Below, in pieces: positions 4,961-38,676 of a DNA stretch of 40,583 bases; the stretch's first letter is position 1; each line of letters starts with the position of its first letter. Below the pieces are notes generated by a model, which searched no databases, had not been told where the DNA came from, and was given only the letters and a program-made list of their open reading frames with translations. The translations under genes and the position numbers were made by a program. This DNA is from Ferruginibacter sp. (GTDB lineage Bacteria; Bacteroidota; Bacteroidia; Chitinophagales; Chitinophagaceae): assembly GCA_030157685.1 (NCBI GenBank), contig JAOAUI010000361.1, positions 77,802-118,384 on the forward strand, read 5' to 3'.

Positions 4961-5160
4961 AATTTTAGGGGTAGTACACCAGTTTGAGATCTGCATTAAC
5001 AATTTTACTGTCAGGAGCTTGTAGAAACCGGGATGCCTTTTGAATAACCCGCCTTCAACTACACTTCTGCAAGCCTGGTGCAGGCTAACAACCAGCTGCG
5101 CTTATACAATTAAACAGCCATCTTATACAGCGAAGTAAATTTATTGCTTCGCTTTTTTTA
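4961..5160 (+). ncRNA. Candidate structured RNA (sRNA or cis-regulatory leader) upstream of the sensor kinase
   Basis: No protein-coding signal exists between dnaN (start 4883) and the kinase (start 5173), yet the plus strand folds well. CACCAGTTTG (4977-4986) pairs with CAAGCCTGGTG (5070-5080) with one bulged C. Inside it TGTAG (5020-5024) pairs with CTACA (5059-5063), and CGGG (5029-5032) with CCCG (5048-5051). AGCCTG (5072-5077) can instead pair with CAGGCT (5081-5086), which excludes the long-range helix. The stretch ends in an intrinsic terminator 13 nt before the kinase ATG. It could be a free sRNA of about 180 nt, possibly a 6S-type RNA, or an attenuator/riboswitch leader. I do not recognise it as tmRNA, SRP RNA or RNase P RNA. 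The 5' end is a guess based on a TAATTTTA box near 4960. Confidence 0.45.
5129..5159 (+). terminator. Intrinsic terminator before the sensor kinase gene
   Basis: AGCGAAG (5129-5135) pairs with CTTCGCT (5147-5153), followed by a run of Ts (5153-5159). It ends only 13 nt before the kinase start codon, so it either closes the upstream RNA or acts as an attenuator for the kinase. Confidence 0.8.
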
Positions 5161-5172
5161 TATTTATGATTA

Positions 5173-8088
5173 ATGCGGAAAATTATTCATCATATATGTA
5201 TTGCCTGCTGCCTGATGATAATGACCGGTACGGCATTTTCGCAATCAACCCAAACCATATTTTACACCACCAAAGACGGACTGCCATCCAACTCCATTTA
5301 TAAAAGTATTTTAGATAACCATGGCTTTTTATGGATAGCTACCGACAATGGTATTGCAAAATTTGACGGGAAGAACTTTAAAATCTACACAACCTCACAG
5401 GGTTTGCCGGATAATGAAATAACCGACATTTTCATTGACAGCAGTAACCGTATTTGGGTAACTCCTTTTAGAAGAACAGCTGCCTATTATAACCCAATAA
5501 AAGACCGCTTTGAAAATGAAGATACCGATCCCGAACTACAGAAAGTAGAATTGGGCAATACAAACCGGGGCAGCGTGTTGCAATATGGTGGCATTGCATT
5601 TTGTAATAACCTGCGTGATTTTTTTATTTATAAGAACGGGAGGGTTACTATTTATAAAGGAATGATGAATATTAAAAAATCATTTGCGCCGGAAAGGATC
5701 ATTGAATTCAGGCCGGAGAAATACCTGATCATAAGCCCCGATTCGGTAAGGGTGTTTGTAAAAAACAGGTTTACAAAATCGTTTCCGCTGAAGAATGATT
5801 TTTTCTACAGCGAATACTTTGGTAATACATTATATATCGCCACCGGCAACCAAATAAAAAAGTACAGGGTAGATAATGAAGGCAATATCAGCCAGGTTCT
5901 GGAAAAAACATTTCCGTTTGTTATTCGTATTTTTTGTAAGGCCGGTAAAGACCTTGCTGTTGCCACTTACAACCGAACAACCTACCCGGTTGATACGGCT
6001 ACGCTTGAGTTGAAAGACCCTTTATTGTACAATATTGCCGTAAGAAATGTATTGGAAGATAAAAACGGCAGCACCTGGATATCCAGCATTGACAGGGGGT
6101 TGATAAAGATCCAGCAAAAAAGGATATCATCATTTACCATTACCGATAAAGCGCTTAATGACGAGATAACCCAGCATTTTACTACGCTTGCTGTTATCAA
6201 TAAAAAAATATTTGTGGGTAATAATTATGGTGAAGTGTTGATTTATGATGGGGTGTATGATATAAAAAGGAGGTCCTTATCCAACGAAAAAAATATGGAT
6301 GCTGTAGTAAGAAAGATAATTGAACTGAAAGACGAAGTTTATGTGGCCTGTCAAACAGGTTCTTTTATACTCGATAAAAAATCGTTGCAGATAGTAATGC
6401 GGTTTGAAGGAAAAGATAACCTGTCATCCAAATCGGCATTATTACTTAACGACTCAGTCTTGTTATTGGGTACGCATGCAACAGCTGTAAAATATAATGC
6501 AGCCGCAAACAAAGGCATTGATACCATCATAAAAAGAATAACAGCATTTGGAGTAAACCAGGCTAAAGAAATTTACATTGGCTCAAACGATGGCCTGTAC
6601 CGCTGGGACAATGATTCTCTTTTTTATTTTGGAAAAAAATACAAGGCATTAAGTTACCGGGTAAATACCATTTTTAACACAGCCGATGATCTGTTGTGGG
6701 TGGGCCTGGGCTCTGATTCGTTACTGGTTTTAAAAAACAACCTGCTTATAAAATCAATTGCACTGGGCGATATCATTCCCGGAAGTGTTTGCAAATCTTT
6801 ATATAGCAACAGGCCCGGTATAATCTGGCTGGGAACAAATAAAGGCTTAAATAAAATTCAATACCAGCTTACTAACGAAAAATTCACTTTTTATAATACA
6901 TCTTTTGGTTTATCTGACGGTTTAATTGGAGAGCAGGTAAATGATATAACCATTTATAAAGACACGGTGTATGCTGCCACAACAGGCGGCATAAGTTATT
7001 TACCGTCTAATTTAAATTTGCCGGTGGCCGATATCACCACATTTATTACCCGTGTGTCTATAAATGGAGTAGATACCTTGGTGATGAAAAACTATACACT
7101 TGGGTATGATCAAAATGATATCAGCATCAGTTTTTCGGGCGCAGATCTTACGGGTTATTATCCATTGTTTGAATACCGGGTTAATGAAGCAGCCTGGCAA
7201 AAAACAGATAAGAATAATATTGAACTACGGCTTGCCTCGGGGAAGTATAATATTCAGATACGGGGAATGAAAAGAGACGGAACACCATCATCGCAAACAG
7301 AAAGCATATCTATTTATATAAAAACACCGTTCTGGCAAAGTGGTATATTCTGGACCATCATGGTAATATCACTTTTCATCATCAGCTTTTTTATTTTAGA
7401 AACACGTAATAAACAAAAACGAAGAGCCGAAGTAGAAAAAGTGATTACTGAAAAGAAATTAACTGAGCTGGAGATGCAGGCGCTAAAGGCACAGATCAAT
7501 CCGCATTTTGTATTCAACTGCCTCAACTCTATAAAAGGTTTTATTTTTGACCGGGACTATAAACAGGCAGATAAATACCTGGATAAATTTGCTGACCTGA
7601 TGCGTAGCACTATTGACAATTCCGATGCTTCCATTATTTCTTTGCAAAACGAGATCAGTTATTTAGATAATTACCTGCAACTGGAAAAACTGCGCTTTGA
7701 AGATAAATTTAATTATGCCATTGCTGTAGATGAAGATATTGATAAAGAACAGGTGTTTGTGCCCGCTATGCTGCTGCAGCCCTATGTTGAAAATGCCATC
7801 AGACACGGTATGCGTTTCCTTGAAAATAAAAAAGGGCAGATAAATATAAATGTAAAAAAAGAAAACAATTTCATAGTTTGTGAAATAGACGACAATGGCA
7901 TTGGCCGGGAAAAAGCTGCGGAACTGAAAAGCAAAATGCATGTGGAGTATCAGAGTAAGGGAATGAATATATCAAGACGCAGGGCCGAGCTGTATAATAT
8001 TGAACAAATGGTTACTGATAAAAAAGACGAGAACGGTATTGCAACCGGAACAACCATAACTGTAAAAATACCCGTAGACTTTAAATGA
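5173..8088 (+). CDS. LytS-type sensor histidine kinase with periplasmic two-component propeller
   Basis: 971 residues. A signal peptide (MRKIIHHICIACCLMIMTGTAFSQ) leads into a long periplasmic region of propeller repeats (GLPSNSIYKSILDNHGFLWIATDNGIAKF, later GIIWLGTNKGLNK) to about residue 620, then a Y_Y_Y-like domain to about 715. One transmembrane helix lies at about 724-744. The cytoplasmic part is a His_kinase (PF06580) module with QINPHFVFNCLNSIKGFIF; the predicted phospho-accepting His is His778. An HATPase follows, with N-box LLQPYVENAIRHGM and G-box IDDNGIGREKA. Such kinases sense extracellular ligands, often glycans or peptides, and phosphorylate a LytTR regulator. The stop overlaps the next start by 4 bp (ATGA), showing translational coupling. 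Its target is inferred to be the exported-protein cluster downstream. Confidence 0.92.
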   Translation: MRKIIHHICIACCLMIMTGTAFSQSTQTIFYTTKDGLPSNSIYKSILDNHGFLWIATDNGIAKFDGKNFKIYTTSQGLPDNEITDIFIDSSNRIWVTPFRRTAAYYNPIKDRFENEDTDPELQKVELGNTNRGSVLQYGGIAFCNNLRDFFIYKNGRVTIYKGMMNIKKSFAPERIIEFRPEKYLIISPDSVRVFVKNRFTKSFPLKNDFFYSEYFGNTLYIATGNQIKKYRVDNEGNISQVLEKTFPFVIRIFCKAGKDLAVATYNRTTYPVDTATLELKDPLLYNIAVRNVLEDKNGSTWISSIDRGLIKIQQKRISSFTITDKALNDEITQHFTTLAVINKKIFVGNNYGEVLIYDGVYDIKRRSLSNEKNMDAVVRKIIELKDEVYVACQTGSFILDKKSLQIVMRFEGKDNLSSKSALLLNDSVLLLGTHATAVKYNAAANKGIDTIIKRITAFGVNQAKEIYIGSNDGLYRWDNDSLFYFGKKYKALSYRVNTIFNTADDLLWVGLGSDSLLVLKNNLLIKSIALGDIIPGSVCKSLYSNRPGIIWLGTNKGLNKIQYQLTNEKFTFYNTSFGLSDGLIGEQVNDITIYKDTVYAATTGGISYLPSNLNLPVADITTFITRVSINGVDTLVMKNYTLGYDQNDISISFSGADLTGYYPLFEYRVNEAAWQKTDKNNIELRLASGKYNIQIRGMKRDGTPSSQTESISIYIKTPFWQSGIFWTIMVISLFIISFFILETRNKQKRRAEVEKVITEKKLTELEMQALKAQINPHFVFNCLNSIKGFIFDRDYKQADKYLDKFADLMRSTIDNSDASIISLQNEISYLDNYLQLEKLRFEDKFNYAIAVDEDIDKEQVFVPAMLLQPYVENAIRHGMRFLENKKGQININVKKENNFIVCEIDDNGIGREKAAELKSKMHVEYQSKGMNISRRRAELYNIEQMVTDKKDENGIATGTTITVKIPVDFK

Positions 8089-8849
8089 TGATCAACTGTG
8101 TAATTATAGACGATGAAGCTAAAAACATTAAGCTGTTGCAGAACATGCTGGAAATGTATTGCCCTGCGGTAAAGGTTTTGGCAACAGATACCGAAGCAAA
8201 AAATGGATTATTATTGATAGATGAACTGCAACCACAGCTTGTTTTTTTAGATGTTGAAATGCCGCACCTGAACGGTTTTGACCTGCTTAAAAAACTAGAG
8301 CCCGTAAACTTCGAAACAATTTTTGTTACTGCTTACAGCCATTATGCCATTGAAGCATTTGAGCACCATGCTACCGGGTATATTACCAAACCCATCAATA
8401 CCGAAAAATTAATTGCGGCAGTTAATAACGCAACCAAACGCATTGAAGAAAAGAATATCAACAAAAACCTGTTCTCTCTTTTAGAAAAAAATACACAAGC
8501 TGCTGCGCCGGATAAAATTCCTTTATCAACCAGCAACGGGTTGGTTTTTGTAAAGCTTGCTGAAATTTTATATTGCGAAAGCAGCGGCAATTACACCAAC
8601 TTCTTTTTATGCACTGATAAAAAAATTATGGTTAGCCGGCAGCTGGGCGAATATGAAAAACTGCTGCCCGAAACAAACTTCACCCGCATTCACGATAAGT
8701 ATATCATCAACCTTTCCTTCATTAAAGAGTATATTAAAGGCAGTGGTGGCGATGTTATTTTGGAAAACGGAAAGGAATTACCAGTTGCATCACGCCGCAA
8801 AGAAGAATTTTTAGCCAGGTTTGAAAAATGGATAAAAAGGAAAGCATAA
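8085..8849 (+). CDS. LytTR-family response regulator
   Basis: 254 residues. The N-terminal receiver domain has IIDDEAKN (acidic pocket), the phospho-acceptor Asp56 in VFLDVEMPHLNG, the Thr/Lys switch residues in FVTAYSHYAIEAF and YITKPINTEKL. The C-terminal LytTR DNA-binding domain runs from about residue 145 to the end: LVFVKLAEILYCESSGNYT, then FTRIHDKYIINLSFIKEY and LPVASRRKEEFLARF. It acts as a cytoplasmic transcription factor activated by the partner kinase, whose gene it overlaps by 4 bp. LytTR proteins bind pairs of short direct repeats upstream of targets. The gene 136 bp downstream, on the same strand, is the obvious candidate target, but I could not identify clear binding repeats by eye. 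Confidence 0.93.
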   Translation: MMINCVIIDDEAKNIKLLQNMLEMYCPAVKVLATDTEAKNGLLLIDELQPQLVFLDVEMPHLNGFDLLKKLEPVNFETIFVTAYSHYAIEAFEHHATGYITKPINTEKLIAAVNNATKRIEEKNINKNLFSLLEKNTQAAAPDKIPLSTSNGLVFVKLAEILYCESSGNYTNFFLCTDKKIMVSRQLGEYEKLLPETNFTRIHDKYIINLSFIKEYIKGSGGDVILENGKELPVASRRKEEFLARFEKWIKRKA

Positions 8850-8927
8850 GCTTAATTTCTCTTTTCCTGCACTTATACACTCATCCCCCCCACATATACA
8901 TTTCAGCAAAACCTTCGCTTTCTTCTT

Positions 8928-8937
8928 TACATTTTTG
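8928..8937 (+). promoter_or_regulatory. Candidate promoter box for the surface-protein operon
   Basis: TACATTTTTG lies 48 nt before the start at 8986 and resembles the Bacteroidota -7 element with two extra bases (read as an octamer it is CATTTTTG). The 136-bp gap between the regulator and the first surface-protein gene is the only sizeable gap in this run of six genes, so a promoter here is expected. Confidence 0.3.
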
Positions 8938-8985
8938 TATCCACAATAAAAGGCTTTCCAAAAAGCTAATTTAAAAAATCAGGAT

Positions 8986-11730
8986 ATGAAAAAAATAAAA
9001 CTGCTTTTACTGTTACTGATGTTTGGCGCAGCTTCTGCCTACAGCCAGTTACAACAGATAAAAATTGTAAGCTTTACAGTAAAAAACCAGTTACCGCCAG
9101 TTATTGATAACTGGGGTAATATTCCCGGATCATTATTGCTGGTAGCGCAACTGCCGCCAAATGTAAGCGTAAAAGGTATCAGGCTGATGGTTCAGATAAA
9201 AGGTGGCGGCGCCATTATCTGCAGTAATAATTCGGCTGGCGGCATGCAGGTTGATGAATTTACAACCCGTACATTTTCGGCCAATGAGCTTACAGGTACT
9301 TTACAGGGCTGTCATGATCTTAAAGAAGGAAGCTATTCTATCTGCGTTCAGTTTTATAATGTTGACCGGGTGGCCATCAGCAATGAAGTGTGTAAAGAAT
9401 TTAGTGTAGAAGTGCCCAAAGAAACAGAATACAATCCGCCAACTTTAATAAATCCTGAAAATGGAAAAGTGTTTACCGAAGCAGAGTTAAGCAGGCCTGT
9501 AACTTTTCGCTGGACGCCGCTGGTACCCAAACCCAGGGACCCGGTTACCTACCGTTTAAAAGTATGGCAATTGATGCAGGGCCAAAACAGTACAGAAGCT
9601 ATGCGTACAAATCAACCCATTGTTACCAAAGACGTAGATAATATTACACAGGCTGTTGTTAACGGAATTTACACAGGCCCTTGCAGGCCACCATACCTGT
9701 GCGAATATGTTTGGCAGGTACAGGCACTAAACAGAGAAGGTAAACCCATGGGGAAAAACGAAGGCAGGAGTGAACCGTACACATTTAAAGTCGAAACGAA
9801 TACAACAACATCTGCAGCTCCTCAACTGGTTTCTCCAGCTGATGGAAAAGCATTTGCACAAAATGAAATGTCGGCACCGGTTATCTTCAGATGGACACCC
9901 GTTGTACCCAAGCCACAATCAGTTACTTACCGTTTAAAAGTGTGGCAACTGATGCAGGGCCAAAGTGCTACAACAGCCATGCGTACAAATCAACCCATTG
10001 TTACTAAAGATGTAGATAATATAACCCAGGCTGTAGTTAGCGGAATTTATACAGGCCCCTGCAGGCCCCCTTATTTATGTGAATTTGTATGGCAGGTACA
10101 GGCGGTTAACAGAGAAGGCAATCCTGTAGGAAACAATGAAGGTAAAAGCGAATTGTGGTCTTTTAAAGTTGGAGAAAACAATAATTCAACTATAAAAAAT
10201 CTATCTCCCGATGACAAAAAACAATTTGCACCCAATGATGCAAAAAACAATATCAGCTTTCGCTGGACACCGCTTGTACCTAAGCCACAGGAACCTGTTA
10301 CCTACCGTTTAAAAGTTTGGCAACTGATGCAGGGCCAGAATGGTACACAGGCCATGCGTAGCAATCAACCTATTGTTACCAAAGATGTAGATAACATAAC
10401 ACAGGTAGATGTTGCATCCATATTAAGATCTGGTTGTACCAGCGGTCCTTGTTGTCCACCTTACCTCTGCGACTTTATCTGGAATGTGGAGGCCGTTATA
10501 CTTCAACCAGGCGCAACACTCAAAACTGTTGCAACAAGCGAACCTACTGAATTTATTGTAAGAGATAAAGCGACTTCAGGAAATGAATGTTCGCCACCAA
10601 AATTAGCAGAACCAGCCAATGCAAAATCATTTGCAGCAAAAGATATGAGTGCCCCGGTTTTATTTCGCTGGACACCACTTGTACCCAAACCACAGGAGCC
10701 GGTTACTTACCGGTTAAGAGTATGGCAATTGATGCAGGGGCAAAATAGTACACAGGCTATGCGTGAGAATAAACCTATTGTAACCAAAGATGTAGATAAT
10801 GTAACAGAAGCATCTGTAAGCGGTTTATACACCGGCCCTTGCAGGCCTCCTTATCTCTGCGATTTTATTTGGGAAGTGCAGGCATTAACCAGGGAAGGAA
10901 AGCCTGCCTGCGCAAAAAATGAAGGCAAAAGCGAAGCCTGGAGTTTTAAAATTCAAAACAATATTGATATACAGATTGACAGTTTAAAAGTTGGTTGTTG
11001 CGAAAAAGGAGTGCAATCCATTTATATTAAAGTAAGAAACAACCTGGCAAGTAGTGTAAATGTAGTAGCTGTAAAATATAAGATTAACGGAGTTGGAGCA
11101 TCTATAAATCTTTCACCCATTAGCCCTGTACCATCTCAAACTATTGCCGGCAATAGCTTTATTGTATTTACTGGAAGTGTTAAATGTGATCCTGCCATAA
11201 ACTTCCTTAAGTTTTTGGTAGATGCTGAAGACGTTACAGACCCGGATAATAAAGAAACAGAAGTAAAAAGCGATACGCTTCGCTGCGCCTGCACTGTATG
11301 CGATGAAAAGAATTTTATATTAAATGCACCTCCACCAGGCAATATAACCATCAGCAACAATACCATAACATTTAATCAGCCCATAACAGTAACAACCACA
11401 CCGACAAAAACAATCAAATCTATAAAAGCCGAACTGGTGTATTACGAAATGGTACCTGAAAATGATATGTGCATTCCCTGCAATAAAGATGCAGCTACAT
11501 ACGGACATTTTACAAACGGCATTAACAGCCAGGAATGGAACGGGCCGCAGCAATCTTTAAATATCAATATAACCACACCACAACTTACACCCTGTTGCAG
11601 CGCAGTATTTAAGTGGTGCATCAGGTATAAGATAGAATTTAAAGACTGCACCACCTGCAACAAACTGGTGTGTTATGAAAAGAAAAAAGAAGGATGCGAA
11701 AAAGTAAACCCTGATAAAAACATTAAATAA
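8986..11730 (+). CDS. Exported TANFOR-like repeat protein with Cys-rich C-terminal domain
   Basis: 914 residues. A signal peptide (MKKIKLLLLLLMFGAASAYS) precedes an N-terminal domain of about 120 residues containing LKEGSYSICVQFYNVDRVAIS. Its pattern resembles the TANFOR domain described from Tannerella forsythia proteins. Four tandem Fn3-like repeats follow (about residues 150-660), each with FRWTPLVPKPQEPVTYRLKVWQ-type cores, KDVDNIT and GPCRPPYLC. Residues about 660-770 are a further beta domain with CC and CACTVC motifs. The last 120 residues are a Cys-rich domain (CIPCNK, CCSAVFKWCIRYKIEF, DCTTCNKLVCYE) related to the end of the next protein. There is no type IX secretion tail and no lipobox, so how it is anchored is unclear. 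It is the first gene of a four-gene cluster, 6 nt before the PKD gene. The TANFOR assignment is by pattern memory. Confidence 0.7.
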   Translation: MKKIKLLLLLLMFGAASAYSQLQQIKIVSFTVKNQLPPVIDNWGNIPGSLLLVAQLPPNVSVKGIRLMVQIKGGGAIICSNNSAGGMQVDEFTTRTFSANELTGTLQGCHDLKEGSYSICVQFYNVDRVAISNEVCKEFSVEVPKETEYNPPTLINPENGKVFTEAELSRPVTFRWTPLVPKPRDPVTYRLKVWQLMQGQNSTEAMRTNQPIVTKDVDNITQAVVNGIYTGPCRPPYLCEYVWQVQALNREGKPMGKNEGRSEPYTFKVETNTTTSAAPQLVSPADGKAFAQNEMSAPVIFRWTPVVPKPQSVTYRLKVWQLMQGQSATTAMRTNQPIVTKDVDNITQAVVSGIYTGPCRPPYLCEFVWQVQAVNREGNPVGNNEGKSELWSFKVGENNNSTIKNLSPDDKKQFAPNDAKNNISFRWTPLVPKPQEPVTYRLKVWQLMQGQNGTQAMRSNQPIVTKDVDNITQVDVASILRSGCTSGPCCPPYLCDFIWNVEAVILQPGATLKTVATSEPTEFIVRDKATSGNECSPPKLAEPANAKSFAAKDMSAPVLFRWTPLVPKPQEPVTYRLRVWQLMQGQNSTQAMRENKPIVTKDVDNVTEASVSGLYTGPCRPPYLCDFIWEVQALTREGKPACAKNEGKSEAWSFKIQNNIDIQIDSLKVGCCEKGVQSIYIKVRNNLASSVNVVAVKYKINGVGASINLSPISPVPSQTIAGNSFIVFTGSVKCDPAINFLKFLVDAEDVTDPDNKETEVKSDTLRCACTVCDEKNFILNAPPPGNITISNNTITFNQPITVTTTPTKTIKSIKAELVYYEMVPENDMCIPCNKDAATYGHFTNGINSQEWNGPQQSLNINITTPQLTPCCSAVFKWCIRYKIEFKDCTTCNKLVCYEKKKEGCEKVNPDKNIK
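9436..10965 (+). repeat. Four tandem ~375-400 bp coding repeats
   Basis: The repeats start near 9436, 9817, 10192 and 10591 and encode units of about 125-133 residues. The central 110 bp of each (from ACCGTTTAAAAGT to GTAGATAAT) is almost identical at DNA level, which suggests recent duplication or gene conversion. Unit 3 differs: it has an insertion (ASILRSGCTS) and GPCC in place of GPCR, giving extra cysteines. Confidence 0.9.
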
Positions 11731-11736
11731 ACTGCC

Positions 11737-14700
11737 ATGAAGAAGATATTCAACATAATTATTGCATTATTTGTTTTTGCCAGCGCTGCGCAGGCACAAC
11801 AAACGGCCTGCTGCCCCGAATTTAAAATGGTTTTCAAAAGGGATTTTGATTGTACCAGGGAAGGTTCCTGTTTGCAGGGGCCGATTGGAGGCAATGAAGA
11901 ACACTTTACCGCCAGCATGTGCAAGTACAGCACCAATACCTTTTTGATTGTGCCCAATTTACCCGGCTATACCTATAACTGGGTTATTACCGGAGGTACG
12001 CCAACATCTGCCACCGGAAATCCGGTAACCATTACCTGGGGTGGCGGCGGTACCGGTACAATTATGGTAACCATTACCAGTGCAGACGGAAGCTGTAAAA
12101 AAACTATCAAAGAAACAATATGCTTACGTGATGCGCCCGTTGCTTCATTTACGTTTACCCAAAGCAGCCCCTGTGCCGGAGCTTTGGTATCTTTTTCAAA
12201 CACATCAACTGGCGCAGCCGGTGTTTCCTGGGACTTTGGTGATGGTAATTTTGCCGGCAATGTAAATAACCCAACACATGTTTATACTTCGCCGGGTGTA
12301 TATAATGTAACAATCTATGTTACCAATGATACAGCAGACTGCAGGCCTACAGCACCACCGGGACAGGGACAAAAACCCTGTTGTGGATGTACCAGTTCTT
12401 ATACACTACAGGTAACTGTTGTTGCAGGCAGCCCTTTATTAATTGTACCCAAGGAATGTATTAATCAGTGTTTATGTGCCGGAGATACAGCAGAGTATTG
12501 TATAACCGTACCATGCCCCGGGCCAATTACCTGGACGGTCTCCCCCGGATCAACAATTCTTTCTGGCCAGGGTACTCAGTGTGTAAAAATAAGATGGGGA
12601 ACTACTTACCCAACAACCATTTCAGTTAGTGCGCCCAATTGCGGAAATCCTTGTGGTAATACTGCAACGTTAAGTGTTCCGGTGCTGGTAAACAATATTC
12701 CAATACAGCCAAACACTATAATTCCGGTATGCCAGTTTACTACGCAAACCTATTCGTTACCGGCAATGCCCGGTGTGTTTTATAATTGGACAGTAACCGG
12801 CGGAACCATAGTTGGACCAAACGTTAATACCTCAGTAATAACAGTAAGCTGGGGAGCCGGACCAACAGGCGTGATAACCTGCACATATAATAATCCACTT
12901 AAAAAGAATTGCAGCGGAACCAGTACAAAAAATGTAAGTATTAAACCTGTATTAAAAATAAACGGCCCTTCACAAAGCTGTGTGGGTTGTACAGCTTTCT
13001 TCTTTACATCTGGGGGCCCTGTTACCTGGACAGGCTCTCCCGGATTGACTTTTTCTCCTGCGACTGGGCCAAGCACAACCGTTAGCTTCCCTGTATCGGC
13101 TACTACCAATACCTATACTATTACCGGAACCGGTGGAGCTGGTGTTTATTGTAATTCGCCGGTATCAGCATTTATTGTTGTTGCGCCAAGGCCTGTATTA
13201 ACCATTCTGCCAACATCGGCTACGGCATGCCCAAATACACCGGTAACTTTTGTAGCAACTTCTACCGTAACAACCTCCCCCATTAACTGGGTACTGCCTG
13301 CCGGTGCCACTATGATAGCCAACAGTGGCCCGCAATTGGATACTGCTGTAATAAGTTTTGCAACTATTCCTGCCGGAGGAGTTACTGTAACAGCAACCCA
13401 AAACTGTGCATTTAATTTAGCCTGTTCACAAGGCACAGCATCTGTAACGGTAAAAAAACCACAGGCTCCCCTTTTAGCCACACCACCCAATCCCTGTATT
13501 GATCAAACATCATCTTATTCAATTTCAAATTATATTCCCGGCATAACCTATACCTGGACTATCAGCAATAATTTAGGCACCATCACTTTGGGCCAGGGCT
13601 CAGGTACCATTAATGTGCTATGGCATGGAAACAATGCTGTTGCCAATACAGGTACAATAACAGTAAGTAATTGCGGAGGTTCAGTTTCAGTGCCCGTAAC
13701 AGTAACACTACCTGTTTATCCAACCATAACTGTTGGCGGCACCTGTATTAAAAACGGCATGACCTTAACATCCAGTACGGCCGGACCTTATACATGGACA
13801 GGCCCGGGTATTGTTGGGTCAACAACAACCCAAACAATAAACATTAACCAGCCGGGGCAGTATTGTGTAACGATCAACTCCGGTGCTCCGGGCAGTTGTG
13901 GTCAAACAAAATGTATTACCATTCCACCAAACCCTTATTGGGTAAAAATTATACCACCTTGCAGTGTTTCTTCCTGTAACCCGGCAACATTAAGTGTGCT
14001 GTTAACAGTGGCAACAAATATTCCTTCGCCCACAAATTGCCAATGGCTTTATCAGCCACCGGGCGGCGGGCCGTTTACGGTTGTGTCTACCACATGCGGT
14101 AATTATACAGCCACTTTGCTGGGCACTTATTATATGGTAATCACCGATCCTAACGGATGTAAAGACACTTCCAATATCATCAGGATACCTCAGGATATAA
14201 ATATCTGTTGTACTACACCAGCCTGTAGTGCATTATCCGGTGTTCAGTTTAATTTTACGCACAGCGGTTGCCAGCCAACAGCATTTACAGGCTCACCATT
14301 AGTATTACCGCCAGGATGGACAACTGGTACCCTACATCCAACCATTTGTTATGGCGATGGAACATCAGATGATTTTATCAGCTTGAATACAACACATCAA
14401 TATCCGGCTGCAGGACAGTACACTGCCTGTGTTGTTCAAAAAGTTGTAAAAATCAGCAGTAATGATACCTGTTGTATAACCAACTGCAGGCAGGTTATAA
14501 TTCCTGTAGTAACAAAATTCACTGCATCTTATAATTGCAATACAGGATTATTGACCATGACTGATGGATCCAGTTATTATCCATCGGCTGCAGGAGCTGT
14601 TTATACATGGACATATTCGGGAGCCTACACCGGAACATTGACCAATGGGCCTAATCAAAGCATTACGCCAACTGCTTCGGGAAATTTTATCATAACCCTG

Positions 14701-17313
14701 AACATTGTGCTTAATGGATGCTCATCTTCCTATAACGTGCCCATATTAATAGTATTACCTGCGGCGCCAATAAATATCAACCCCAATCCAAGCTGCGATG
14801 GCTCACCGGTTTTCTTTTCAACTACGGCAGGCATGGCCAGTTATAACTGGCAGTTTGGTGATAACAGTTTTTCATTGATGGCATCACCACAGCATATTTA
14901 TCCTGGTCCGGGTACTTATAATATAACATTAACTGTTGTTACACCAGAAGGTTGTACAGTAATTAAAACAGGTACAGTTACCATTCAACCAAAACCAAAA
15001 GTTACCTTATCGCCAAACCCGGTAAAAATTTGCCCGGGCACTTCTGTTACATTAACACCAACTATTAATGCCAACGGAAATACCATGTGTCCTAATTTAT
15101 CGGACTATACTTTCCAATGGTATAATAACGGTAACCCTGTAGGTACAAATACAAACACATTTACAGCAACAAACTATGGAACTTATTATGCAGTGCTTAC
15201 AGGTACCAATGCAGCATGCAATTGCGTAATAACAACCGATACAGTTACAGTAAGCTGGTATCCCAAGCCAATTGCAAAGATCAAGGGTAACTCAACTGTT
15301 TGTATCAATCCAAATACCGGCACCGGCACTTTAAACCTTGAAAATACAGTCAGCGGTTATACAACCTATAACTGGAGTGCAAATAGTGGAAATGTTACTT
15401 TCAATTTCAATAATATTTACAACCCGGTTGCTACCATAACTGCGGCCGGTAATTACCAGATATTTTTACAGGTAACAGATGCCAATGGATGTATGGCTTA
15501 TGATACACTGTGTATTTATGCCAGCAACAGCCCTACAGTAATTGTAAATGCGCCGGGCGGAACTTTATGTTCGGGTAATGTATATTCATTACAGGCTGTG
15601 CCTACACCTGCAACAGCGCCACCAGCCGGGTATAATTATTTGTGGAATAATGGTGCAAACACCAATACTATAAATGTATCGGCACCGGGAGTTTACAATG
15701 CTATTGTTACAGATATGAATACAGGTTGTTCGGCTATGTCTAATTCTGTATTTATAAATGAAGGCCCCGATCTAAGCCTCTTCCCATCCTGCTGCGATAC
15801 CATTTGCAGCGACGCACCAATCAATATCATTCCACCATTGCCATTGGGTCCCGGACAAACGGCCTGCACCCTTTATACAATAGTGTGGATGGATAACGGA
15901 GTTCCTATATCTCCTCAGCCATCACCATGCAATACACTTAATACCGCTACGCTGGTACCCTTGCTGGGAATGCACAATATTTCTATTGCAGTTACGCTAA
16001 ATGGCTGTACCGACACTTCCAATGTGTTTCAGTTATACATCAAAGACTGCGAGTGCGATTGTAAAGAAAGCAAATGGGATAAGATCACATTAACCAAGGG
16101 CAAAGCCGAAGCAGATCCTAAAGATCCCAAAGATGATCCTGCCCTGGCAAAATCCGGCAAGGCGGTGGTTATTGATAACCCCAATACCATTAGCATAAAC
16201 TGCGATAAAACATATAAACTTGATTGCAATAAACCTTACACAATCAACGCAGGTTACTTATGTAAGGATACTGCATGCCCCGGAAAAGTTACCTATAGTT
16301 TACAGCCGCCCAGCGGAGCTCCCATAACCGGAAGCATGCCGCCTGCACTTAATTTTACACCTACACAAAACGGTACCTATGTACTTACAATGTACGGCTG
16401 GTGCGGTGATAAGATATGCGATACCTGTATCATTAAATTTGAAGTGAATTGTGTAGCGTGTGATTGTAAAGGCAGCAAGTGGGGAGAGCAAATGGTTACG
16501 ATTGATAATAACACCAAAAATTTTAAATGCGGACAGCAGTACGATGTAAAATGTAAAATACCAGTCACAGTTAACGCAAATTATTTATGTGCTGATCCAA
16601 AATGTAACGGAGCTGTTACCTATTCCCTGCAGGGGCCAACCGGTGGACCAACAACCGGAACTTTACCGCTGACATTTACACCAATTCAAAACGGTACGTA
16701 TACTTTAACCATGTATGGCTGGTGCGGTACTACGCTTTGTGATAGTTGTGTAATTAAATTTAAAACAGATTGTAAGGAAGAAGATTGCTGTCCCTATGAT
16801 ATTAAAGCAACAACAGGAACTGTCAAGTATGATTATACACAGATACCAAACGCAACTGTTGCTGCGCAAATATTTACCATTAATGGTTTGGCATTGGCAA
16901 CCATTACCGAAGTTAGAGCTAATGTGGTTAGCTACGATATAACTGATAATTTTGGTAAGGAATGTATGAAATGCGTTAACCTGCCGTTTACCTGGGCAAG
17001 CATTGCATCTGCAGCAAGTATTGGCGCAGCGCCGGGTTTGATAACCATGTATGGCGGAACAACAGTTGTTTCATTTAATGGCAGCGGCGCTGATGCATAC
17101 AAAAACCCAAGAGAAGTGGTATGGAATAACGGAAGCCCGATTGCCATACCAAACGGAGCAAACATTGGTATGAACTTTATTTTACCGCCGGTGCCTGCAA
17201 TTGACTGTTGTGAGCTGAAAGGAAAGATCTGTGTTAAATTTACTTTCCGTGATAAAGATTGTAAGGAATGTGAAGTGATTGCATGTTTTGATTTTGTAAT
17301 CAAGAAAAAATAA
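11737..17313 (+). CDS. Giant Cys-rich PKD-domain surface protein
   Basis: 1858 residues with a signal peptide (MKKIFNIIIALFVFASAAQAQ). It is a chain of Ig/PKD-like beta domains. A PKD-like unit with YNWVITGG and ITWGGGGTGTI (about residues 67-120) is followed by a true PKD with WDFGDG (about 135-198). More WTVTGG/ITVSWG and WTISNN/INVLWHG units follow, then a second PKD with YNWQFGDN (about 1012-1075). Near the C-terminus are two tandem Cys-rich units (about 1437-1573 and 1574-1683), then a final domain (1684-1858) with CCELKGKICVKFTFRDKDC and CEVIACFDF, homologous to the end of the preceding protein. Paired cysteines throughout suggest many disulphides outside the cytoplasm. No type IX tail is visible. 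It is likely a long surface filament or adhesin; function is not known. It sits 6 nt after the TANFOR-like gene and 32 nt before the barrel gene. Confidence 0.85.
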   Translation: MKKIFNIIIALFVFASAAQAQQTACCPEFKMVFKRDFDCTREGSCLQGPIGGNEEHFTASMCKYSTNTFLIVPNLPGYTYNWVITGGTPTSATGNPVTITWGGGGTGTIMVTITSADGSCKKTIKETICLRDAPVASFTFTQSSPCAGALVSFSNTSTGAAGVSWDFGDGNFAGNVNNPTHVYTSPGVYNVTIYVTNDTADCRPTAPPGQGQKPCCGCTSSYTLQVTVVAGSPLLIVPKECINQCLCAGDTAEYCITVPCPGPITWTVSPGSTILSGQGTQCVKIRWGTTYPTTISVSAPNCGNPCGNTATLSVPVLVNNIPIQPNTIIPVCQFTTQTYSLPAMPGVFYNWTVTGGTIVGPNVNTSVITVSWGAGPTGVITCTYNNPLKKNCSGTSTKNVSIKPVLKINGPSQSCVGCTAFFFTSGGPVTWTGSPGLTFSPATGPSTTVSFPVSATTNTYTITGTGGAGVYCNSPVSAFIVVAPRPVLTILPTSATACPNTPVTFVATSTVTTSPINWVLPAGATMIANSGPQLDTAVISFATIPAGGVTVTATQNCAFNLACSQGTASVTVKKPQAPLLATPPNPCIDQTSSYSISNYIPGITYTWTISNNLGTITLGQGSGTINVLWHGNNAVANTGTITVSNCGGSVSVPVTVTLPVYPTITVGGTCIKNGMTLTSSTAGPYTWTGPGIVGSTTTQTININQPGQYCVTINSGAPGSCGQTKCITIPPNPYWVKIIPPCSVSSCNPATLSVLLTVATNIPSPTNCQWLYQPPGGGPFTVVSTTCGNYTATLLGTYYMVITDPNGCKDTSNIIRIPQDINICCTTPACSALSGVQFNFTHSGCQPTAFTGSPLVLPPGWTTGTLHPTICYGDGTSDDFISLNTTHQYPAAGQYTACVVQKVVKISSNDTCCITNCRQVIIPVVTKFTASYNCNTGLLTMTDGSSYYPSAAGAVYTWTYSGAYTGTLTNGPNQSITPTASGNFIITLNIVLNGCSSSYNVPILIVLPAAPININPNPSCDGSPVFFSTTAGMASYNWQFGDNSFSLMASPQHIYPGPGTYNITLTVVTPEGCTVIKTGTVTIQPKPKVTLSPNPVKICPGTSVTLTPTINANGNTMCPNLSDYTFQWYNNGNPVGTNTNTFTATNYGTYYAVLTGTNAACNCVITTDTVTVSWYPKPIAKIKGNSTVCINPNTGTGTLNLENTVSGYTTYNWSANSGNVTFNFNNIYNPVATITAAGNYQIFLQVTDANGCMAYDTLCIYASNSPTVIVNAPGGTLCSGNVYSLQAVPTPATAPPAGYNYLWNNGANTNTINVSAPGVYNAIVTDMNTGCSAMSNSVFINEGPDLSLFPSCCDTICSDAPINIIPPLPLGPGQTACTLYTIVWMDNGVPISPQPSPCNTLNTATLVPLLGMHNISIAVTLNGCTDTSNVFQLYIKDCECDCKESKWDKITLTKGKAEADPKDPKDDPALAKSGKAVVIDNPNTISINCDKTYKLDCNKPYTINAGYLCKDTACPGKVTYSLQPPSGAPITGSMPPALNFTPTQNGTYVLTMYGWCGDKICDTCIIKFEVNCVACDCKGSKWGEQMVTIDNNTKNFKCGQQYDVKCKIPVTVNANYLCADPKCNGAVTYSLQGPTGGPTTGTLPLTFTPIQNGTYTLTMYGWCGTTLCDSCVIKFKTDCKEEDCCPYDIKATTGTVKYDYTQIPNATVAAQIFTINGLALATITEVRANVVSYDITDNFGKECMKCVNLPFTWASIASAASIGAAPGLITMYGGTTVVSFNGSGADAYKNPREVVWNNGSPIAIPNGANIGMNFILPPVPAIDCCELKGKICVKFTFRDKDCKECEVIACFDFVIKKK
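16048..16785 (+). repeat. Two tandem Cys-rich coding repeats in the PKD protein
   Basis: Unit 1 (about 137 residues) and unit 2 (about 109 residues) both run from CDCK.SKW to a CDTCIIKF/CDSCVIKF end. They share the core C...Y.vkC..P, YLC, VTYSLQ.P, FTP.QNGTY.LTMYGWCG. Unit 1 has a 25-residue charged insertion rich in Lys, Asp and Pro (KAEADPKDPKDDPALAKSG). I do not know this repeat as a named domain. Confidence 0.8.
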
Positions 17314-17345
17314 AATACTCATTGGTTAAACCCAAACCGATTTTT

Positions 17346-19106
17346 ATGATGAGAAAAAAAATAATAACCAGCAGCTTTTTTCTTTGCATGTTTGTTGCTA
17401 CATCTTTTGCGCAGGAAACAGATTCGTTACTTAACAAAGCAAAGGATAAAGTAAAAGAAAAATTACAGATAAGCGGCACCATGGGCATAACCTACGAAGG
17501 GTATGGCCTTAGCCGCAGCCCATCGGGCTGGACAGGCTACCAGCCACGCAGGCCCTGGAACCAGGTACGCTTTAATTTTACGCCAACATTTAAATTCAGT
17601 AAAAATTTCAGCCTGCCGTTTAATTTTAATTTTGCCGCTATACCCACCAATTTTGCAGGGCCTTATGCAGGCATTAAAAAGCCAAGCTTCGGGCAGTTTA
17701 TCACCAACCCCATGAACAGTTTTGGCCTTAATCCAAAATACAAATGGGCCGAGCTGCAATTGGGTACGCAGTATTTAAAATACTCCGAACTTTCAACAGG
17801 TGATATTGGTGTGTTTGGCGTTGGAGTAGACCTGAGGCCCAAAACATTTCTCTTTAAATTTTTTACAGGTGTTTCACAACAAGGTATTAATTATGTTGTT
17901 GGTCCGCCAACTGTTACCGGTGCGTACAAAAGAAGAAACTGGATGGCGCAGATTGGTACAGAAAAAGAAGGTAAATATTTATTTGCATTAAATTTTGCAA
18001 AAGGAAAAGATGTACCAACATCAGCCGCACCGCCACCATTAACCATCAGGCCACAGGAAGGTATTGTGATAAGCCTGGTATCTGATCTTTACCTGGAGAA
18101 AGGATTTTATTTTAAAGCCGAAGGCGCACAATCAACTTTTACCAAAGACCTGGCAACGCCATTAAGCCCCAATTTAAAAAGCCTGAAACCTTTTATTGAA
18201 GCACACACATCCACCATAACCGATTTTGCAGCACAGGCTGCTATTGGGAAAAAAGGCAAGAACCTGGATTTGGGCGTAATGGTAAAATACCTGGGCGCAG
18301 GTTTTCAAACAATCGGCTATCCGTTTTTGCAAAGCGACAGGCTTGATTATCTTTTGAATACCCGTATCAATACCTGGAAAAACAAAATGAATATTGTAGC
18401 CAGCCTGGGCCAACGTGTAAATAATGTAAACAATACGGCATTAAAAGCAAAACAGTTTATCGGCAATCTCAACTGGTTTACACAGTTCAGCGAAAGCTTC
18501 AGTTTAAATATTAACTATAATAATTTTGGTTTTCAAACAGCAAGCGGCCTGAACCCCTTCGGCATAAAAAATGTAAGTAACGACCTGGGTATAAATCCAA
18601 CCTTTACTTTTACGGGTAAAAAAATTATTCACCTGATAAGCATTAGTTATAATTACAGTAAGTATGATGAACGTGATGTAATGACCGGCCTTACTACATC
18701 TAACAATACCCACACAGGTTTACTTACCTATGTGCCAACATACCTGGAGAAGGAAATATCGCCCGACTTCAGCATCCTGTATTTTTATAACAACGTGCCC
18801 GGTGCTAAAATTACCCTGGCTACATTCAGCGCAGCATTAAGTATGCAGGCAGCCAAAAAGAAAATGCGGCTTCGTGGTCAATTGCAATACACGCTTGGAA
18901 AATTAAATAGCTTCAGCAGCAACAATAATTTAATTGCCAGCTGTAATATTGATTTTAAGTTAACAAAGAAACTTACCTGGGTAACTTTTTTAACTACCAA
19001 CTATTTTAAATACGGAAACGAAATAACGCCCAACGGAGCCAACTACGTAGAAACAGGTTGCCGCACAGGATTTCAATATCGTTTTGACACAAAAAAACAA
19101 AAATAG
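17346..19106 (+). CDS. Putative outer-membrane beta-barrel protein
   Basis: 586 residues with a signal peptide (MMRKKIITSSFFLCMFVATSFAQ). A short amphipathic helix (SLLNKAKDKVKEKLQ) precedes alternating hydrophobic/polar strands rich in aromatic residues: ISGTMGITYEGYGLS, QVRFNFTPTFKFSKNFSLPF, GVFGVGVDLRP, IIHLISISYNYSKY. It ends in FQYRF plus a short tail, as outer-membrane barrels often do. It is longer than PorP/SprF proteins (about 300-350 residues), the barrels usually paired with giant surface proteins in this phylum. Its place between the PKD giant and a TANFOR-like protein suggests a dedicated export or anchoring partner. A TTG start at 17322 would add eight residues before the signal; the ATG pair at 17346/17349 fits better. 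The stop lies 3 nt before the next gene. Confidence 0.7.
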   Translation: MMRKKIITSSFFLCMFVATSFAQETDSLLNKAKDKVKEKLQISGTMGITYEGYGLSRSPSGWTGYQPRRPWNQVRFNFTPTFKFSKNFSLPFNFNFAAIPTNFAGPYAGIKKPSFGQFITNPMNSFGLNPKYKWAELQLGTQYLKYSELSTGDIGVFGVGVDLRPKTFLFKFFTGVSQQGINYVVGPPTVTGAYKRRNWMAQIGTEKEGKYLFALNFAKGKDVPTSAAPPPLTIRPQEGIVISLVSDLYLEKGFYFKAEGAQSTFTKDLATPLSPNLKSLKPFIEAHTSTITDFAAQAAIGKKGKNLDLGVMVKYLGAGFQTIGYPFLQSDRLDYLLNTRINTWKNKMNIVASLGQRVNNVNNTALKAKQFIGNLNWFTQFSESFSLNINYNNFGFQTASGLNPFGIKNVSNDLGINPTFTFTGKKIIHLISISYNYSKYDERDVMTGLTTSNNTHTGLLTYVPTYLEKEISPDFSILYFYNNVPGAKITLATFSAALSMQAAKKKMRLRGQLQYTLGKLNSFSSNNNLIASCNIDFKLTKKLTWVTFLTTNYFKYGNEITPNGANYVETGCRTGFQYRFDTKKQK

Positions 19107-19109
19107 CAC

Positions 19110-20003
19110 ATGAAAAAAATATTATTAACAGCCATCGCCATTATTATTACAACCATTTGTATGGCACAGGTAAAATTCAATTTTGCAATACTTAATACAC
19201 AGCCGCCTGCACAATTATCTGAGTGGGGCAACAGGCGTGAAGTGCTTACATTGATCGTTACTGGACAACCTGGTGTTCCTGGTGGTGGTCAGTATAAAAT
19301 AAAAACTGAGATCAAAACAACAGACGGAACCGTTGTAGCGTCGGCCGACCTGGCTAAAACACCTGTATTTACACTCAATTCAACAGGTACACCAACAATT
19401 TTGCTTGCCAATGATGTAATGCCGCTGGAGTTTATGGTGTTTACAGGCAAATACCAAACATCTTTACAAAGAACTGGTAAACTGCCTGCAGGTAATTATA
19501 TTATTTGTGCAAGGCCGGTTAATATTATAGATTACACACCTTTAGGGGAAGAACAATGCAAAACCTTTTACCTGGCATCAACACAATTACCCATTTTGAT
19601 GAAGCCGTATAATGAAGAAGTGATGGATGCAAAGAAGGCACAAACAGCCATCATCTTCAGATGGAGCCCGGTAGTACCTACGCAACCATCGCCGGTTACG
19701 TACCGCATACAGGTTTTTGAAGTGTTGCCAACACAAAGCCCGGTGCAGGCACTAAGAAGTAACCAGCCCTTGCTGGATAAAGAAGTTTTAGCTGCCACAC
19801 AATTCATCTGGCAACCGCAGTTAACTTTTTTACCGTACGATGATGAAACAAAAAAACTCCCCACATTTATATGGACCATACAATCGCTGGATGCAAGTCA
19901 TAATCCTGTTACCAGGACAGATGGAAATGGCGAAGGCAGAAGTGAACCGCTTATCTTTTTTGTAAACCCCGATAAAAACAAAAGGCCTAAAAAACAAGAT
20001 TAG
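19110..20003 (+). CDS. Short exported TANFOR-like protein with a single Fn3-like repeat
   Basis: 297 residues with a signal peptide (MKKILLTAIAIIITTICMAQ). The N-terminal domain (FNFAILNTQPPAQLSEWGN..., LPAGNYIICARPVNI) has the same plan as the N-terminus of the 914-residue protein: a core ending in a G-x-Y-x-x-C-x motif. One repeat follows, with IIFRWSPVVPTQPSPVTYRIQVFE, ALRSNQPLLDKE and TFIWTIQSLDASHNPV, plus EGRSEPLIFFV. This is a clear single-copy version of the fourfold repeat upstream, but it lacks the GPCRPPYLC cysteines and the Cys-rich C-terminal domain. It is the last gene of the cluster and is probably a minor component or cap of the same surface structure (inference). Confidence 0.7.
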   Translation: MKKILLTAIAIIITTICMAQVKFNFAILNTQPPAQLSEWGNRREVLTLIVTGQPGVPGGGQYKIKTEIKTTDGTVVASADLAKTPVFTLNSTGTPTILLANDVMPLEFMVFTGKYQTSLQRTGKLPAGNYIICARPVNIIDYTPLGEEQCKTFYLASTQLPILMKPYNEEVMDAKKAQTAIIFRWSPVVPTQPSPVTYRIQVFEVLPTQSPVQALRSNQPLLDKEVLAATQFIWQPQLTFLPYDDETKKLPTFIWTIQSLDASHNPVTRTDGNGEGRSEPLIFFVNPDKNKRPKKQD

Positions 20004-26998: not shown

Positions 26999-28654
26999 TT
27001 ATTTTTCAAAAAATTTTCGCAGTAAATCCTGGTAAACATAAATATCTGTTGTTGATGTAAAAACCATTTGTTTCATCAGTTGCAGTTTTTGTTTACTTGT
27101 AATTTGCATGGCCATGGCCCAAAGGGCAAGGTCTTCCATAATTTTTATTTCTATTGCCGAAAGGTTGCTGCTGCTGAGCTGTACACGGCTGCAAAAATTT
27201 TCAACCGCCTGTTTACAGGCATGTTGATAATTGTTCTTCCAATCTTTTTTTATAAAGGTTAATACCTGTGTTGAAATTTGAATTACATCCTGAGGTATAT
27301 CCTTACCAAGGTTCAAGGCAATATTACCTCCTGTAAAACCAACCAGTGTTTTGGCACTGCTGCGGTAATTTTTCCGGCTCTTTATTTTTTGTTGCTCCAG
27401 TTCTGCCTGTTCAAATATCTCCTTATCTACCGGCCTGAAGCCAAACCGGTAATAAAACCAGAATGCACCACTGGCTATGGCATCGTCGTTATCGGCGCCA
27501 AATTGAAACGGCTCCACTTCAAAATAACTGATATTAAAATACTGTTTATAAACCCTCAGCAACTGGCAAAGCAAATAACCCGATTCTCCACCCCGGTATG
27601 GTTCAAAAACATTAAAACCAACTTTTGCCCTGTTACCAAAAACCCACATGCCACCATAAGAAACTGGCAGGCCGTTTTTAAAAATGGTAAAGCCCATATA
27701 GGTTTCCAGCGGCAACTGCCTTTCGGCATACATACCATAAATAGACATGGTTAAACCTCTTTCCAAAACAATAAACCGCATCGAATCTTCCTGCAGGTAC
27801 GTAGCCGGATCAATTTCCCGTTCTGTTAACGACATGGCATATTTAATCACTTTAACCAGTTGCTCTTTTCCGCTTTTGCCCATAATTTTTTCAGGTGCTA
27901 CCGGTTCATGCAGCAATGGTTCATTCATCAGTTGCACATGATCAAATCGTTTCAGCATATCCTGGTGATAATAAACAGGCTGATGCGGTATGCGGTTATA
28001 GGAACGTGAAAACTGTTTGCTTTTGGGAACAACCTGTACAAAAAGATTCAGGCCATCAGATAAAAGATCTTTAGCCTGCGGATATTCCTTTAACGCCCCA
28101 AGCTGTCCATGTACAAAATCCAAGAACTGCCTGGTTTTCAGGCCCAGTACTTCCAGCAGATCCTCAGGGCCTAATCCGGCGGTGGTTTCGGCTTTTAATA
28201 AAGAAGGCAGTGTAATATTTAGCACTTCATTCAATGTTAGTTTGGGATTATAAAAGGAATCGAAATAAAGTGTAAAGTCTTTTTGCTGCAATGACCAGCC
28301 CAGAAAATCTGGCGAAAAACTGGTGATTGTTTCTGTAAACGGAAGGCCTGAATTTTCGGGCAGTGATTTTTTAATTTTCCGGTAATTTTTTTTCAGGTGC
28401 AGGGCAATTCTACTCAGTTCATTTTCGGCAAGTCTGCGTAAAGTTGCATTGCCTGCGTAGGCGCATAAAAACAATAAAGTCTCATTATAAACAGGTAAAT
28501 ATTTACCGGCAGGTAAAGCCATACTGGCAAGGGTTTGCAGCAGATCTTTTTTAAGCAGGTTTGCATCCTTATCCATGTTGGCTGCAATTTCTTTCAGCGA
28601 TTGAAGGCAACGGCCAAACTTGTTTTTTGTATTTAGTGAAACGGGATTTTGCAT
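26999..28654 (-). CDS. Unassigned ~550-residue protein with GNAT-like core (paralogue A)
   Basis: 551 residues, no signal peptide or membrane helix. I do not recognise a named family. The N-terminal 280 residues are helical and Leu/Lys-rich. Around residues 300-400 there is a mixed alpha/beta region with the order of an N-acetyltransferase: MGFTIFKNGLPVSYGGMWVF, VGFNVFEPYRGGESGYLLCQ, YFEVEPFQFGADNDDAI, SGAFWFYYRFGFRP. The turn YRGGES could serve as the acyl-CoA loop and the final GF motif matches the usual GNAT end. The C-terminal 150 residues are helical. The same core recurs in the gene at 31492-33144. The GNAT link is inference from pattern; enzyme activity and substrate are unknown. It diverges from the pullulanase gene across 169 bp. 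Confidence 0.7.
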   Translation of the reverse strand: MQNPVSLNTKNKFGRCLQSLKEIAANMDKDANLLKKDLLQTLASMALPAGKYLPVYNETLLFLCAYAGNATLRRLAENELSRIALHLKKNYRKIKKSLPENSGLPFTETITSFSPDFLGWSLQQKDFTLYFDSFYNPKLTLNEVLNITLPSLLKAETTAGLGPEDLLEVLGLKTRQFLDFVHGQLGALKEYPQAKDLLSDGLNLFVQVVPKSKQFSRSYNRIPHQPVYYHQDMLKRFDHVQLMNEPLLHEPVAPEKIMGKSGKEQLVKVIKYAMSLTEREIDPATYLQEDSMRFIVLERGLTMSIYGMYAERQLPLETYMGFTIFKNGLPVSYGGMWVFGNRAKVGFNVFEPYRGGESGYLLCQLLRVYKQYFNISYFEVEPFQFGADNDDAIASGAFWFYYRFGFRPVDKEIFEQAELEQQKIKSRKNYRSSAKTLVGFTGGNIALNLGKDIPQDVIQISTQVLTFIKKDWKNNYQHACKQAVENFCSRVQLSSSNLSAIEIKIMEDLALWAMAMQITSKQKLQLMKQMVFTSTTDIYVYQDLLRKFFEK

Positions 28655-38617: not shown

Positions 38618-38676
38618 GATGTTTTTTTTACAAAGTTTGATAAAACATTTCACAATTGCTATACCTGCTGTTGGGT

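Follow-up and report, generated by a model that had tools for sequence, protein, structure and literature searches.

TANFOR proteins of Bacteroidota share a conserved gene cassette with a predicted large outer-membrane barrel

TANFOR proteins were defined as a class of Bacteroidetes polymorphic toxins, with toxicity tested (Jana et al. 2020, PMC7073777). The text of that paper reports type IX secretion systems in >95% of TANFOR genomes and an enrichment of SprB repeats and type IX tails near TANFOR genes, and it proposes type IX export. Its main text nowhere uses the word "barrel", and its enrichment table holds no outer-membrane barrel. Among other described systems, those closest to our subject are SprB/SprF and the PorP-type B substrates, in which a giant exported protein is encoded beside its own outer-membrane barrel. 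The PorP/SprF partners, often encoded beside their giant substrates, are described as 14-stranded FadL-family barrels that serve a C-terminal tail (PMC9143113, PMC12618676). Here we analyze a 40,583-nucleotide stretch (the window) of a Ferruginibacter sp. draft genome (3.18 Mb, 77% complete), in which a LytS/LytTR regulatory pair precedes two TANFOR-like proteins (TAN1 and TAN2), a giant cysteine-rich PKD protein and a predicted outer-membrane barrel protein, which we call BAR.

An earlier note on this DNA had pointed to six co-oriented genes with small gaps, and the coordinates, strands, and gaps that it gave all agree with the open reading frame (ORF) listing. Pfam identifies both the propeller-type sensor kinase and the LytTR regulator that it named, as well as the PKD repeats of the giant. 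TAN1, BAR, and TAN2 have nothing above the Pfam cut-offs. The features of the locus are the following:

5103..5129, + strand: direct repeat of period 21 bp (TATACA-N15-TATACA), with the LytS start 43 bp downstream; probable LytTR site (autoregulation)
5173..8088, + strand: LytS-like propeller-type sensor histidine kinase (Pfam Reg_prop, His_kinase PF06580, HATPase_c)
8085..8849, + strand: LytTR response regulator (Pfam Response_reg and LytTR), overlapping the LytS gene by 4 bp
8874..8900, + strand: direct repeat TATACA-N15-TATACA, 21-bp period, before TAN1; probable LytTR site
8986..11730, + strand: TAN1, 914 aa, 136 bp after the LytTR gene; signal peptide and about four Fn3-like repeats judged by eye, TANFOR domain, Cys-rich domain at the C-terminus
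9049..9465, + strand: TANFOR domain of TAN1 (profile without window sequences, E = 2.1e-6)
11368..11727, + strand: shared Cys-rich C-terminal domain, TAN1 copy
11737..17313, + strand: giant Cys-rich PKD protein, 1858 aa, 6 bp after TAN1; PKD repeats by Pfam
16879..17310, + strand: shared Cys-rich C-terminal domain, giant copy
17346..19106, + strand: BAR, predicted outer-membrane barrel of about 25 strands, no Pfam or NCBIfam family, 32 bp after the giant
19110..20003, + strand: TAN2, 297 aa, starting 3 bp after BAR; signal peptide and one Fn3-like domain judged by eye, with a TANFOR domain
19161..19610, + strand: TANFOR domain of TAN2 (profile without window sequences, E = 5.8e-8)

BAR has 586 residues from its first ATG; the 585-residue form from the next ATG (17349) was searched and folded, and the ORF listing also has a TTG start at 17322. 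The set is flanked upstream by dnaN on the opposite strand and downstream by recX, the next gene after TAN2.

The partnership between TANFOR proteins and this barrel is well supported: We observe a conserved gene order, co-occurrence across genomes, gene fusion, a predicted barrel, a shared tail, and paired repeat sites. We consider it fairly probable that these belong to one system, in which a dedicated BAR exports or anchors the TANFOR proteins under its own two-component control. The mechanism we infer from the same observations.

Both TANFOR assignments of the earlier note stand by an independent profile, built from 17 relatives at TIGR02542-positive places only, which places the N-terminal regions of TAN1 and TAN2 in homology with TIGR02542-positive proteins (the domain limits are from an earlier profile of this analysis). 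Residues 22-272 of TAN1 align with the corresponding place in TAN2 at 33% identity. Like the TANFOR toxins as described (PMC7073777), the window proteins have a signal peptide followed by a TANFOR domain at the N-terminus, together with Fn3 domains and PKD neighbors, in a member of Bacteroidota with a type IX system. The window set differs from them in having no recognizable toxin or immunity gene and in three additional parts: BAR, the Cys-rich tail common to TAN1 and the giant, and the repeat sites.

We examined co-occurrence in an order sample of 198 genomes and a phylum sample of 395 genomes. The barrel is present in 47 of the order genomes. At E 0.001, TIGR02542 finds matches in 20 order genomes, and all 20 are among these 47 (P = 7e-15); no match in the 198 genomes lies above the curated cut-off. 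The 12 TIGR02542 genomes of the phylum sample all fall among its 178 barrel genomes (P = 6e-5); many of the 178 barrel matches are weak, but each of the 12 genomes has a barrel match of E 2.2e-61 or better. The two are also close in the genome: TIGR02542 has 25 places in the order, and for 20 of these, from 18 of the 20 genomes, a barrel is at most 10.1 kb away. A wider TANFOR profile (E 1e-6) finds 49 order genomes, 44 of them with a barrel, and in the window's own family it finds TANFOR in six of six barrel genomes and one of 29 others (P = 4e-6).

Neighborhoods were read from 60 order stretches and 40 phylum stretches. Around the first 62 barrels, including that of the window, a TANFOR gene is near 52 and none is near 10. 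Its position is next downstream in 36 cases, two genes upstream in 12, one gene upstream in one, and within the same ORF in three. One phylum stretch (L146) has no barrel ORF; among the remaining 39, TANFOR is near in 27. When both sets are taken together under a re-iterated profile, a TANFOR gene lies on the same strand at most three ORFs away, or in the same ORF, at 80 of the 101 barrel loci. A 360-850-aa Fn3-like protein is often the third member of the set. On Runella sp. SP2 plasmid pSP2_2 (L230, 8004-17089), BAR adjoins a TANFOR giant and an Fn3 protein, all three annotated as hypothetical; the Runella set lies beside a divergent TPR gene and a response regulator. In two genomes (L075 and L076) a single ORF consists of an N-terminal TANFOR domain, a coiled-coil-like stretch (by eye), and the barrel, the TANFOR parts scoring E 1.7e-7 and 5e-7 by a profile built without either. 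A shorter ORF (L074) is homologous to these fusions, and its TANFOR end is not independently detected. Elsewhere, a barrel with a ~1100-residue N-terminal repeat extension lies ahead of a TANFOR gene (L073, 1836-6881), and on the Bergeyella porcorum plasmid pQD2021 (L229) a barrel-like gene follows short PKD-domain ORFs that resemble a broken larger gene.

Conserved synteny of the four exported genes was borne out across genomes. In 38 close loci, partly redundant and drawn from a scan of named genomes, the order TAN1 (with tail)-giant-BAR-TAN2 occurs 27 times, four times with an extra called ORF between the giant and BAR (L159, L168, L175, and L181). In two further loci (L176 and L179), BAR and TAN2 are preceded by a TANFOR giant and the Fn3 protein, and in the remaining nine the upstream side is cut off or no TANFOR is detected on TAN1. 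TAN2 directly follows BAR in 37 of the 38, with a gap of <30 bp in 31 of these 37; the one other locus stops at a contig edge. The full cassette is found in Ferruginibacter and other Chitinophagaceae drafts, Flavobacterium erciyesense, F. muglaense, and one Prolixibacteraceae draft; a Paludibacter draft has BAR and TAN2 at a contig edge. The recurrence of this order in many genomes indicates that the arrangement is more than chance, and since the flanking ORFs differ between host groups, it argues for selection on gene order. In six loci without LytSR (L160, L161, L162, L174, L178, and L184) a 371-aa ORF on the opposite strand lies directly before TAN1; by size and strand it is probably dnaN.

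BAR is very probably a real large barrel from a family without a name, judging by structure prediction. The AlphaFold2 model, made with 56 homologs, has a mean pLDDT of 86.6 and a pTM of 0.80, and we count 25 predicted strands of at least eight residues in its DSSP list. The outer-membrane barrel candidate of the earlier note, which it had judged larger than PorP/SprF, thus keeps both attributes: The predicted strands exceed the 14 of the FadL-like PorP/SprF barrels, and no PorP/SprF match appears in the window BAR (Pfam and NCBIfam) or among the 17 families listed for 57 homologs. BAR further differs from PorP/SprF in tracking an N-terminal domain. Across the 57 family members, no Pfam family matches more than two at E 0.1. 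Pfam finds no TonB plug in BAR, the predicted model has no plug-sized domain before the strands, and neither the window barrel nor its homologs match Omp85/POTRA in Pfam. The top-ranked solved structures in Foldseek include FimD, an usher (E 2.7e-8, TMq 0.29), and the Mtr complex, by its chain B (6r2q_B; E 1.6e-7, TMq 0.50), with porins and TonB receptors also among the matches. The likeness to ushers and the Mtr barrel is that of a large barrel; the low TMq (0.29-0.50), the ~10% identity, and a cassette without chaperone, pilin, or cytochrome genes (Pfam) set BAR apart from them. Its best match among solved sequences is a weak one, a 59-residue stretch of FadL (E 0.0022). A barrel from a Ferruginibacter draft genome shares 90% identity with it (best segment), and the family is spread over many Bacteroidota families. 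Five barrels of family f25 (L118, L119, L120, L123, and L124) have a C-terminal extension of ~250-290 residues, mostly helical by eye, and L151 and other weak matches form a distant group of ~800-aa proteins in many phylum genomes.

The PKD giant is rich in cysteine (99 residues, 5.3%), as the earlier note had seen, and TAN1 has 31 cysteines (3.4%); TAN1 and the giant end in a common Cys-rich domain of ~120-150 aa, of which the draft genome has exactly these two copies. This tail is found in only three of the 198 order genomes, and most close relatives carry the same TAN1/giant pair; with so few genomes, we rejected the tail as a general sorting signal. For the TAN1 relative of L178, a chain of Ig-like domains including the tail is predicted (mean pLDDT 83.8), with an uncertain domain arrangement (pTM 0.35), and a fold search with it returns generic Ig/Fn3/macroglobulin-like chains. 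A 982-aa open frame in a genome in which no barrel was found has a weak copy of the tail (L156, G020:C2:1708486-1708857; E 2.7e-6).

Other giants end differently. In two Flavobacterium species (L187 and L191) the giants have a serine-hydrolase end (AmpH/D-aminopeptidase-like, NCBIfam) in place of the Cys-rich tail, and by eye the cassette giants of L190 and L195 have similar ends. At four f25 loci the TANFOR giant that adjoins the barrel ends in an unrelated sequence, and small genes come after it; one of these loci (L120) has AHH nuclease and Imm11 matches next to the barrel, both below cut-off, and the ends at these four loci may be toxin-like. Among the 25 scanned of 31 complete giants, no Pfam toxin family was found save for one metallopeptidase-like match. 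TAN1, TAN2, and the giant have no Pfam toxin domain, and what follows the set is recX rather than an immunity gene; an undescribed toxin end in these proteins is conceivable. Tests of this kind led us to reject, for the window set, membership in PorP/SprF, a type IX tail, a TonB receptor, an Omp85 barrel, and a toxin-immunity locus.

LytTR proteins bind two direct repeats ~21 bp apart before their target genes, and repeats of this spacing stand before both LytS and TAN1. Where the relatives have a LytR of at least 73% identity, the repeat precedes TAN1 in seven of seven (the L159 copy with one mismatch), and it is absent there in relatives with a more distant LytR or LytS (L167, L176, L179, and L181). 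The L159 genome also has a near-identical copy of the pre-LytS repeat at the matching distance (its place follows from the coordinates), and in the L166 genome the repeat recurs 3.8 kb upstream of its first copy, at the expected beginning of LytS. Four exact copies occur in the window genome, two of them at this locus, and none of the reversed control pattern. The TATACA repeat was first spotted by eye and then counted, so that its discovery was not blind and the genome-wide count is a check. A LytTR consensus pattern gave no match, and no Bacteroidota -7 box (TAnnTTTG) precedes TAN1 or LytS; in a looser form the box is present in eight of 27 upstream regions, with 4.5 expected by shuffling (maximum 11).

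These repeats are the best support for control of the cassette by the adjacent LytS/LytTR pair, with autoregulation, which we regard as likely from sequence. The pair is optional, however: By our own reading, it or one gene of it lies upstream in 11 of the 28 relatives with a visible upstream gene, with an orthologous LytR in only seven of these 11, and we rejected LytSR as an obligate part of the cassette. The sensory control proposed in the earlier note appears likely at this locus.

The system may be pictured as follows. Sec would carry the four exported proteins to the periplasm, and BAR, in the outer membrane, would be the cognate partner of the TANFOR proteins, which would dock to it by the domain right after the signal peptide. 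By this means the long Ig/Fn3/PKD chains might reach or pass the cell surface. The C-terminal parts appear exchangeable (the Cys-rich domain in the window, serine hydrolase in the two Flavobacterium species, and putative toxin-like ends in the four f25 loci), and TAN1 and the giant probably work together through their common tail. The LytS propeller would sense an outside signal, and LytR would activate both its own promoter and the TAN1 promoter by presumed binding to the 21-bp repeats.

Several observations weigh against this picture. No window protein reaches the TIGR02542 cut-off (67 bits), TAN2 scoring 12.9 bits (E = 0.078) and TAN1 having no match. For five TIGR02542 places among the 25, no barrel is near (two in G043 and one each in G067, G160, and G109); G109 and G160 have no nearer TIGR02542 place, and that of G109 is a short protein. 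The wider TANFOR profile was built mostly from barrel neighbors, and the curated TIGR02542 model is therefore the fairer test. With the wider profile, three order genomes have only the barrel (G065, G121, and G137) and five only TANFOR. Four of the latter, all without a detected barrel (G055, G091, G139, and G140), have short proteins only, with a partial TANFOR match (open frames of 234-397 aa), and in the fifth (G100) the match starts 1.6 kb from the contig start. As 21 of the 101 barrel loci lack a nearby TANFOR gene, TANFOR is the usual, not the sole, partner of the barrel. Some of the 21 are at contig ends, several look solitary, and about six have another giant family (by eye). We note this second giant family, without TANFOR, beside the barrels of L069, L079, L088, L121, L122, and L124 (by eye), and several of its loci carry the same Fn3 protein. 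The 38 close loci include near-identical genomes (L160/L184 and L185/L186), and L179 and L034 apparently come from one genome, so that their counts are not independent. Among the 22 relatives other than the seven with a close LytR, one (L173) has the repeat, with no LytR in the 1.1 kb seen. Across 11 genomes there are 31 exact repeat copies and 14 of the reversed control (21 and 10 without the repeat-rich G582), but the control is commoner in G575 and G578 (3 vs. 4 in G578), so the placing of the repeats, not their number, speaks for function. Docking and surface placing, lastly, are steps drawn from sequence comparison.

The route across the outer membrane admits other readings. SprA might export the TANFOR and PKD proteins by an unrecognized signal, with BAR holding them at the surface as SprF does SprB, a tenable but doubtful alternative. 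It fits the reported co-occurrence of type IX systems with TANFOR and the export proposal made on it (PMC7073777), the habit of PorP/SprF partners of being encoded beside giant substrates (PMC12618676, PMC9143113), and the position of the Cys-rich tail, which occupies the place of a sorting tail; against this, the tail is rare next to the barrel (three vs. 47 order genomes). SprA is present in the window genome and in all 47 order barrel genomes, the order base rate being 192 of 198 above cut-off. Outside the order, SprA is found in 79 of 79 strong barrel genomes (the 81 with E 2.4e-38 or better, without G343 and G487) vs. 43 of 76 barrel-negative ones (of 206 genomes; P = 6e-13), but this enrichment is largely phylogeny, since 31 of the 33 SprA-negative genomes belong to one family (f38). 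Moreover, as the earlier note had remarked of the large proteins, the window proteins have no recognizable type A or B tail (Pfam and NCBIfam, E 0.1), while the genome has 42 TIGR04183 (type A tail) matches, all elsewhere; 25 complete TANFOR giants have none by Pfam, nor is there any among the matches listed for five cassette giants. The predicted strand number, ~25 against the 14 of PorP/SprF (PMC9143113), also argues against an SprF-like anchor. Conversely, BAR may itself be an outer-membrane exporter, a Bacteroidota form of two-partner secretion unrelated to Omp85 and the type IX translocon. Giant adhesins, enzymes, and toxins would then be addressed by their N-terminal TANFOR domain to a cognate ~25-strand barrel. 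The resemblance to type Vb secretion is that a large exported protein has an N-terminal domain that tracks a barrel encoded beside it; unlike TpsB, BAR has no Omp85/POTRA match, and we hold this specific form to be rather unlikely.

That BAR is a porin in an uptake complex, with the TANFOR and PKD proteins as surface receptors capturing a polymer, regulated by a propeller sensor as in glycan-use loci, seems to us quite unlikely. Propeller sensors often control glycan use in Bacteroidota, and Ig/PKD chains are common in glycan binding; the porin and TonB-receptor matches in Foldseek, the weak FadL match, and a pullulanase-type gene 8.8 kb downstream (28824-30788) point the same way. However, BAR shows no TonB plug in sequence or predicted elements, the cassette has no glycosidase (Pfam) and is flanked by dnaN and recX, and four related loci have toxin-like ends with small downstream genes. 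Least probable of all is that the window copy is a toxin delivery set, a polymorphic toxin locus proper: TANFOR proteins are a tested toxin class (PMC7073777) and L120 has its sub-threshold AHH and Imm11 matches beside a barrel, but the three candidate carriers in the window lack a Pfam toxin domain and recX follows them. We retain the reading of BAR as a dedicated partner that exports or anchors TANFOR proteins.

Elsewhere in the window, three ORFs have no Pfam match at 0.001 (26999-28654, 551 aa; 31492-33144, 550 aa; and 37796-38653, 285 aa), and Rfam and tRNA scans of the window are empty.

The earlier note had called the system undescribed, which holds in part. TANFOR is a published toxin class (PMC7073777), whereas our searches of open PubMed Central papers, supplements aside, turned up no description of its barrel partner, of the paired Cys-rich tail, or of the repeat sites before LytS and TAN1. 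With BAR, a known class of bacterial toxins and surface proteins may have gained its missing partner in the outer membrane. How TANFOR toxins are exported is a matter of hypothesis in the text of the defining paper (PMC7073777); with a barrel in every sampled TIGR02542 genome (20 of 20 and 12 of 12), mostly near and fused in two genomes, the export question becomes directly testable, and a barrel family without a name gains a partner and a likely job.

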